Below, piece after piece: positions 33,342-33,997 of a DNA stretch of 64,000 nucleotides. Source of the DNA: Prescottella equi. GTDB taxonomy: Bacteria; Actinomycetota; Actinomycetes; Mycobacteriales; Mycobacteriaceae. Below the pieces are notes generated by a model, which made no database searches, was not told where the DNA came from, and was given only the letters and a program-made list of their open reading frames with translations. Both the position numbers and the translations under genes were made by a program. The stretch's first letter is position 1. Every line of letters starts with the position of its first letter. Location: NCBI RefSeq assembly GCF_002094305.1, contig NZ_LWTX01000007.1:62001-126000 (forward strand), written 5' to 3'.

Positions 33342-33393
33342 TGACGTCAGGTCGGCCTTGAAATGACGTCACACTGGCGTCATGCTGACGTCA
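33342..33393. promoter_or_regulatory. Phased palindrome operator array over the RHH gene promoter
   Basis: TGACGTCA occurs at 33342-33349, 33364-33371 and 33386-33393, with a one-mismatch copy TGGCGTCA at 33375-33382. The last three are exactly 11 bp apart and the first is 22 bp upstream. The array overlaps a promoter: -35 TTGAAA at 33358-33363, a 17-base spacer, -10-like CATGCT at 33381-33386, and the ATG six bases later. Such phasing puts the sites on one face of the helix. Confidence 0.8.
33358..33393 (+). promoter_or_regulatory. Probable leaderless promoter of the RHH gene
   Basis: TTGAAA, 17 bases, CATGCT, then GACGTC and the ATG at 33393. No Shine-Dalgarno precedes the ATG, so the transcript probably begins at the start codon. 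The second to fourth palindromes lie within or just after this promoter. Confidence 0.55.
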
Positions 33394-33893
33394 TGGATCT
33401 CACCGAGTACACGGCCCGCCTGCGCGACGACCTCACCGCCGCCGCTGCACTCGGGGACGAACAGACACAGAAGATTGCCTCGGCACTCGCGGCGGCGGTG
33501 GAACGTTCGGCGCAGCTGATGCTGGTGTCCGCGCTGTCCGACCTCGCCCGGGAGGCATCGGAGGAAATGGGCGACCGGACACTCCACGTGCGTTTCGACG
33601 GCACCGAGGCCACCGTCGAGTCGGCCCGTCGTCGGCCCGGCCATTCCACCGGAACCTCCGAACGCTCGGGCGACGACCGGGACCCCCGGGACTCTTCGGA
33701 TGCGTACCGCACGCTCGAGGACGTCACCGGCGACATCAGTCGCGTCACCCTGCGCCTGGTCGATCAGATCAAGTCGCGCGCCGAGGAGGCCGCCCTGCAG
33801 GACGGAATGTCGCTCAATTCCTGGGTGTCCCAGGCCGTTCAGGGAGCGCTGCGCGATCAGATGCGCCGGAGCCGCTCCGACGGCGATCGGTGA
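33393..33893 (+). CDS. Ribbon-helix-helix (Arc/HicB-type) DNA-binding protein
   Basis: 166-residue protein. The C-terminal part reads VTLRLVDQIKSRAEEAALQDGMSLNSWVSQAVQGALRDQ (about 122-160), a typical ribbon-helix-helix sequence of the HicB-antitoxin or Arc type. The N-terminal half is helical and acidic, with a disordered middle (about 80-108, Arg/Ser/Asp-rich). No HicA or other toxin gene is adjacent. The phased TGACGTCA array over its promoter suggests autorepression by cooperative binding, as MetJ does on AGACGTCT boxes. The target set beyond itself is unknown. Confidence 0.82.
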   Translation: MDLTEYTARLRDDLTAAAALGDEQTQKIASALAAAVERSAQLMLVSALSDLAREASEEMGDRTLHVRFDGTEATVESARRRPGHSTGTSERSGDDRDPRDSSDAYRTLEDVTGDISRVTLRLVDQIKSRAEEAALQDGMSLNSWVSQAVQGALRDQMRRSRSDGDR

Positions 33894-33997
33894 CGACAGC
33901 ACCTCTCTTCGACGCCACCTGCCGGAATCGCGGCGCCGGTAATGGTCTAATTGCGTCTCGTCGTTCACTGTTTTCACAGCGTTGAGGAGTGGAGAGC

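Follow-up and report, generated by a model that had tools for sequence, protein, structure and literature searches.

What binds the four short palindromes that run through the promoter, and into the start codon, of a ribbon-helix-helix (RHH) gene in the 64-kb stretch of DNA analysed here (the window)? We consider it probable, at about 0.8 by our own estimate, that the protein made from this gene uses the array as its operator, where it would repress its own synthesis as stacked dimers. The features on which this reading is built are as follows.

33342..33349, no strand: distal TGACGTCA box at -51; the following box begins 22 bp (two turns) further on
33358..33363, + strand: putative -35 element TTGAAA; over 252 loci, T 88%, T 63% and G 65% at -35 to -33
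33364..33371, no strand: box TGACGTCA at -29, abutting the -35 element
33375..33382, no strand: box TGGCGTCA at -18, whose final two bases, CA, open the -10 element
33381..33386, + strand: putative -10 element CATGCT (pattern CANNNT); over 252 loci, C 86%, A 89% and T 90% at -12, -11 and -7
33386..33393, no strand: box TGACGTCA at -7, ending on the A that begins the ATG
33393..33893, + strand: gene for a 166-residue RHH protein
33732..33866, + strand: RHH domain, residues about 114-158 (Pfam HicB, Arc profile and PHROG matches)
33738..33758, + strand: codons of the predicted DNA-reading beta-strand SRVTLRL (R117, T119, R121), from the Arc alignment and conservation

The initial annotation had reported the four boxes and their spacing together with TTGAAA, a 17-base spacer (33364-33380), CATGCT and the ATG (33393-33395), and all of these are confirmed to the base. 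Perfect palindromes make up three of the four boxes, and these three are the only copies of TGACGTCA in the window. As a bare count this is chance level (3 against 1.58 expected, with 20 of 100 shuffles reaching 3), and the genome holds 57 sites against 59 for the reversed control word; the array finding thus depends entirely on the spacing. When all 256 8-bp palindromes are compared, none but TGACGTCA forms a triple at 11-bp steps in the window (at most one mismatch per copy), and its 11-bp triple appeared in none of 200 simulated 64-kb sequences (first-order Markov). No box pairs at an 8-bp step occur in the window. The matches listed, which cover 50 of the 57 genomic sites, speak against the repeats being equally common elsewhere in the genome: among them the three array copies alone lie within 100 bp of each other, and the next-nearest pair is 787 bp apart. 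The phased box array is real.

The boxes interleave with the -35 element, the -10 element and the ATG, so that operator, promoter and start codon have bases in common. The putative -10 is supplied by the CA that ends the -18 box and the T that opens the -7 box, and its letters, doubling as box letters, are not independent evidence of a -10. Since the preferences at the -10 across loci coincide with box letters, the -35 alone provides independent evidence of a promoter. The closeness of the -10 to the ATG implies a leaderless mRNA for the RHH gene, with its predicted start at the ATG itself. A longer reading frame is possible from 33363; homologues begin at the position of 33393.

The C-terminal part of the protein matches Pfam HicB barely (21.4 bits against a cut-off of 21), and this match is confined to the RHH part of the 166 residues. 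A profile of nine family members, compared with solved structures, found Arc (1b28) as its best match (E 0.001), and a PHROG Arc-like repressor was also matched (E 0.00077). The RHH fold claimed at the outset is thus supported, as a prediction, at the C-terminus. In the alignment with Arc, RVTLR falls on QFNLR, placing R117, T119 and R121 opposite Q9, N11 and R13; among 41 aligned sequences, R117 and R121 are invariant and T119 is conserved in at least 90%. The N-terminal ~110 residues gave no match above a curated cut-off, and a PADLOC scan gave no match to anti-phage defence.

To place the locus among its relatives, we gathered the best 80 of 401 confirmed named loci, and added protein searches of 151 genomes of the family, 296 of the phylum, 394 of the class and 199 of another class in the same phylum. 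These gave protein matches in 81, 49, 150 and 46 genomes, respectively, in sets that overlap slightly. From the searches, 273 loci with the gene were drawn, a subset of the matches made up of at most 30 loci per search together with 60 stretches hand-picked for diversity. Of these, 4 lacked a start codon close to where it was expected, 2 had no strand that could be recognised and 15 were duplicates; taking them out left 252, of which 59 were hand-picked. All loci were selected by protein similarity. Judged by these matches, the family is widespread in Actinomycetota.

Within the genus, the RHH orthologue is present in all 14 genomes searched, and the proposed association of the array with orthologues, now tested, bears out. 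An exact TGRYRYCA box stands at -7 in 13 of the 14, at -18 in 12, at -29/-30 in 13 (the remaining one, L028, has a single mismatch) and at the distal position of -49 to -52 in 12; all three promoter-proximal boxes are exact in 11. The bases between the boxes and in the flanks vary. Across the 252 loci, at least one TGRYRYCA box lies within 90 bp before the start in 245, at least three in 184, and 231 have two to five. The control stretches, about 600-690 bp upstream at the 188 loci with enough upstream DNA, contained one box in 3 cases and two in none. Counted by register, 212 of the 252 loci have exact TG....CA edges at -7, 193 have them at -18, and 177 at the most favourable of -29 to -31. 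At the off-register positions -12 and -24, no locus of the 252 has even three of the four edge letters, and at -40 five have three and none has four. Seven loci lack an exact box; one of them, L154, has near-boxes, and the other six are distant homologues or have uncertain starts.

The layout is constant and the palindrome is not. The initial annotation had assumed one operator word, a view that has to be given up, as paralogues use other words in the same layout. A paralogue in the same genome (locus L036), 31% identical, keeps this layout and has TGGTGCCA/TGGCACCA as its word; 4 of all 76 genomic TGGTGCCA sites fall within the 83 bp up to its start, and the sole other close pair among all 76 lies at C2:104051 and 104138, 87 bp apart. 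As a separate observation, TGGTGCCA is rare genome-wide: the two strands together hold 76 sites, compared with 413 of its reversed control. Nine same-genus genomes have both genes. In the eight compared, the paralogue, whose reading strand is RINLRL, always has G-majority words, and the T-type gene, with RVTLRL, has A-majority words in seven and is tied in the eighth, L022. G003, the remaining genome, was set aside because its paralogue is split over two frames (L038, L039); its paralogue boxes look the same as those in the other genomes.

The same association of word and reading strand holds across the family. We called a locus scorable if two or more of its boxes had A or G at position 3 (only such boxes were counted) and there was no tie; this left 211 of the 252, the other 41 comprising 24 ties and 17 loci with fewer than two boxes. 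All 48 scorable loci with Asn at the middle reading position have a G majority at box position 3, and 160 of the 163 with Thr, Ser or Ala have an A majority, the exceptions being L259, L280 and L287. Counted by half-site, the third letter is A 820 and G 230 for Thr, A 139 and G 41 for Ser, and A 56 and G 276 for Asn. Individual slots show the pattern less cleanly than loci taken whole: of the 168 Thr loci, 85 carry A and 61 carry G at -18, and of the 53 Asn loci, 9 carry A and 42 carry G. A careful 96-row tree, from which the strand columns were removed, has two changes to Asn, only one of them forced by well-supported branches; a quick 252-row tree gives six changes with one well-supported pair. 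Many independent switches of word and strand were considered and are not supported by the trees, and independent-pairs tests had too few pairs. As a description, then, the word-strand pattern is strong, and it reflects few independent events (one or two well-supported changes). That Thr or Asn itself causes the choice of word is our inference, supported by the place of this residue in the Arc alignment.

A third pairing of strand and word occurs with the strand RTTLRL, where a mixed pair of TGACACCA and TGGTGTCA, 11 bp apart, was found in 7 of 7 loci (at -29/-18 in five and at -30/-19 in two). These loci (L202, L250-L253, L277 and L278) look like one clade, and the two words together make an inverted repeat of about 19 bp. 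In L166, with the strand RFALRL, TGATATCA occurs twice, 11 bp apart, a possible further word in a single locus. The -29 and -18 boxes were also tested, over all loci, for a larger mirror symmetry that joins them; 36 of 142 pairs are exact reverse complements, against a shuffled mean of 17.1 and maximum of 28. The symmetry is clear in T-type loci with DUF4097, where on average 3.38 of the 4 core letters agree in inverted and 1.95 in direct comparison (21 pairs). For the clade of the window gene (2.79 inverted and 2.69 direct, 68 pairs) we do not claim it.

A DUF4097-like gene lies within 1.3 kb downstream on the same strand in 144 of the 252 loci, a count in which five loci had under 600 bp of downstream sequence. 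Of the Asn loci it accompanies 51 of 53, of the Ser loci 29 of 30 and of the distant Thr loci 62 of 64; among the 104 Thr loci whose protein closely resembles the window protein (local alignment scores above 300) only 2 have it, and the window gene has none. The gene downstream of the paralogue is a Pfam Toastrack DUF4097 (E 9.6e-9) and, by eye, an apparent start of an ABC transporter gene comes after it. The window gene therefore sits on a branch without the partner, in a family whose members mostly precede a DUF4097/Toastrack gene. This corrects its description as a free-standing regulator. The tree is unrooted, and we prefer loss over late gain: most likely the window lineage lost its Toastrack partner and kept the regulator with its operator.

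The window gene is instead flanked by a short-chain dehydrogenase gene upstream and, about 100 bp downstream, by a polyketide-cyclase-type (SRPBCC) gene. Ahead of the latter, at 33941-33959, stands AATGGTCTAATTGCGTCTC, which recurs in same-genus loci; its counterpart is GAGACGCAATTAGACCATT in L017, L018 and L021, with variants in L019, L025, L027 and L029, and it is probably the SRPBCC gene's own promoter. No toxin gene was recognised beside the RHH gene, in agreement with the initial annotation.

These neighbours bear on the origin of the protein. It could be an orphan HicB-type antitoxin whose operator is a relic of a toxin-antitoxin system, a reading to which the Pfam HicB match just at threshold lends something, as does the one plasmid-borne homologue found, a distant Streptomyces match that carries the annotation "HicB family antitoxin". 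That match spans the RHH part only, however, no toxin gene is adjacent, and the usual partner in relatives is DUF4097/Toastrack, so we regard the relic as very unlikely. Carriage on plasmids was considered too and is rejected, the distant Streptomyces match being the sole instance. An intact HicAB toxin-antitoxin system is rejected by the neighbours (dehydrogenase and SRPBCC genes here, DUF4097 in most relatives outside the window's clade). The probability that the array is a chance or mutational repeat, or a site that serves the upstream dehydrogenase gene, is negligible. The chance frequency of TGACGTCA as a single word is in its favour, yet the 11-bp triple is absent from the simulations, and the array is kept with the RHH gene where the upstream sequence differs (L016, L020 and L028); its conservation across orthologues refutes chance.

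Two further readings accept the array as a binding site and dispute either the protein that binds it or the outcome. A different, global regulator could occupy the boxes while the encoded protein acts elsewhere, and the 57 genomic occurrences of the single word TGACGTCA would suit such a protein. We find this quite improbable, since the word tracks the encoded strand between two paralogues of the same cell while the layout stays constant, and no other cluster of three exists among the matches listed for TGACGTCA (50 of 57) or among all 76 TGGTGCCA sites. The gene's own product might also bind the array as an activator or an architectural protein and not as a repressor. A position such as -51 is one where activators can bind, and the distal box fits it. 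Some RHH proteins, AmrZ for example, are described as both activating and repressing (PMC3325190). The three proximal boxes, on the other hand, overlap the -35 and spacer, the -10 and the start codon, and a protein bound there should block polymerase; activation is an unlikely outcome here.

Self-repression, the reading that we prefer, could work as follows. An RHH dimer would insert its two-stranded beta-ribbon, with R117, T119 and R121 on each strand, into the major groove at each 8-bp box, and the one-turn spacing would let dimers stack on one face of the DNA as two Arc dimers do. Occupied boxes would then mask the -35, the -10 and the start of the leaderless mRNA, and the protein would shut its own promoter in a graded, cooperative manner. 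Duplicated regulators in one cell may be insulated from each other by differing words within a common layout, with TGACGTCA-like words pairing with Thr or Ser, and TGGTGCCA-like words with Asn, at the middle reading position.

That relatives keep the layout and differ in the letters of the palindrome together with the reading strand suggests a self-regulation switch with changeable wording. In its most general form, this would be a fixed layout (8-bp boxes, 11-bp phase, fused leaderless promoter) with the word set mainly by the strand, where at box position 3 Thr or Ser goes with A and Asn with G, and RTT goes with the mixed TGACACCA/TGGTGTCA, giving naturally insulated self-repressing switches within one cell and a readable beta-ribbon code. 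We put forward this generalization tentatively, at slightly less than even odds. A family with a plasmid member annotated as an antitoxin seems rather to consist of self-repressors whose operator is conserved and modular. Its paired words and strands make the specificity of DNA reading by a beta-ribbon testable by single substitution, and they supply candidate orthogonal promoters for actinobacteria. The family also links Toastrack genes to a DNA-binding partner; a role in sub-membrane signalling under envelope stress has been proposed for those genes (PMC11237479). Among the matches listed, no title or abstract describes this operator, although subscription journals are thinly covered and this is not proof of absence.

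Several known systems resemble parts of this arrangement. AmrZ of Pseudomonas aeruginosa is an RHH protein that represses its own gene and reads half-sites through a strand with K18, V20 and R22 (PMC3325190). Its amrZ1 site, in the portion of that study available, consists of two 5'-GGC half-sites, with no phased palindrome array (PMC3325190). Ravi et al. 2024 mention an operon in Actinobacteria that combines Toastrack and ABC transporter genes with an RHH transcription factor (PMC11237479). The paralogue locus, an RHH gene and then DUF4097, resembles it; the accessible text of that work describes no operator or promoter for the regulator (PMC11237479), and the window gene differs in having no partner.

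The initial annotation had likened the array to a MetJ operator, and this likeness is limited to the word and the strand. In MetJ, the methionine repressor of E. coli, the boxes abut each other and the reading strand is K-x-T. The R-x-T strand of the window protein resembles the latter, whereas its boxes follow an 11-bp phase with 3-bp gaps, a spacing like that of Arc. The MetJ word, AGACGTCT, is an 8-bp palindrome in tandem repeats (PMC4239095), and the window boxes have the same word length and the same GACGTC core. S-adenosylmethionine is the co-repressor of MetJ, and nothing in the present data points to it for the window protein. MetJ is absent among the 13 structure-profile matches up to E 5 and among the Pfam matches, and spacing and sequence rule out membership in its family.

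The window protein is not listed for the Pfam Arc family, where its paralogue scores 19.7 against a cut-off of 20.4. The Arc operator has a phase of 11 bp. The window system is like it in its 11-bp box spacing and in the predicted use of its strand, with R117, T119 and R121 aligned to the Arc contact residues. In Arc of phage P22, Q9, N11 and R13 contact bases, and two dimers occupy adjacent major grooves of a 21-bp operator (PMC12645479). In contrast, arrays in the family of the window protein mostly have two to five 8-bp boxes, the RHH domain is C-terminal, behind a region of ~110 residues, and the operator forms one unit with the promoter of its own gene, which appears to be leaderless.
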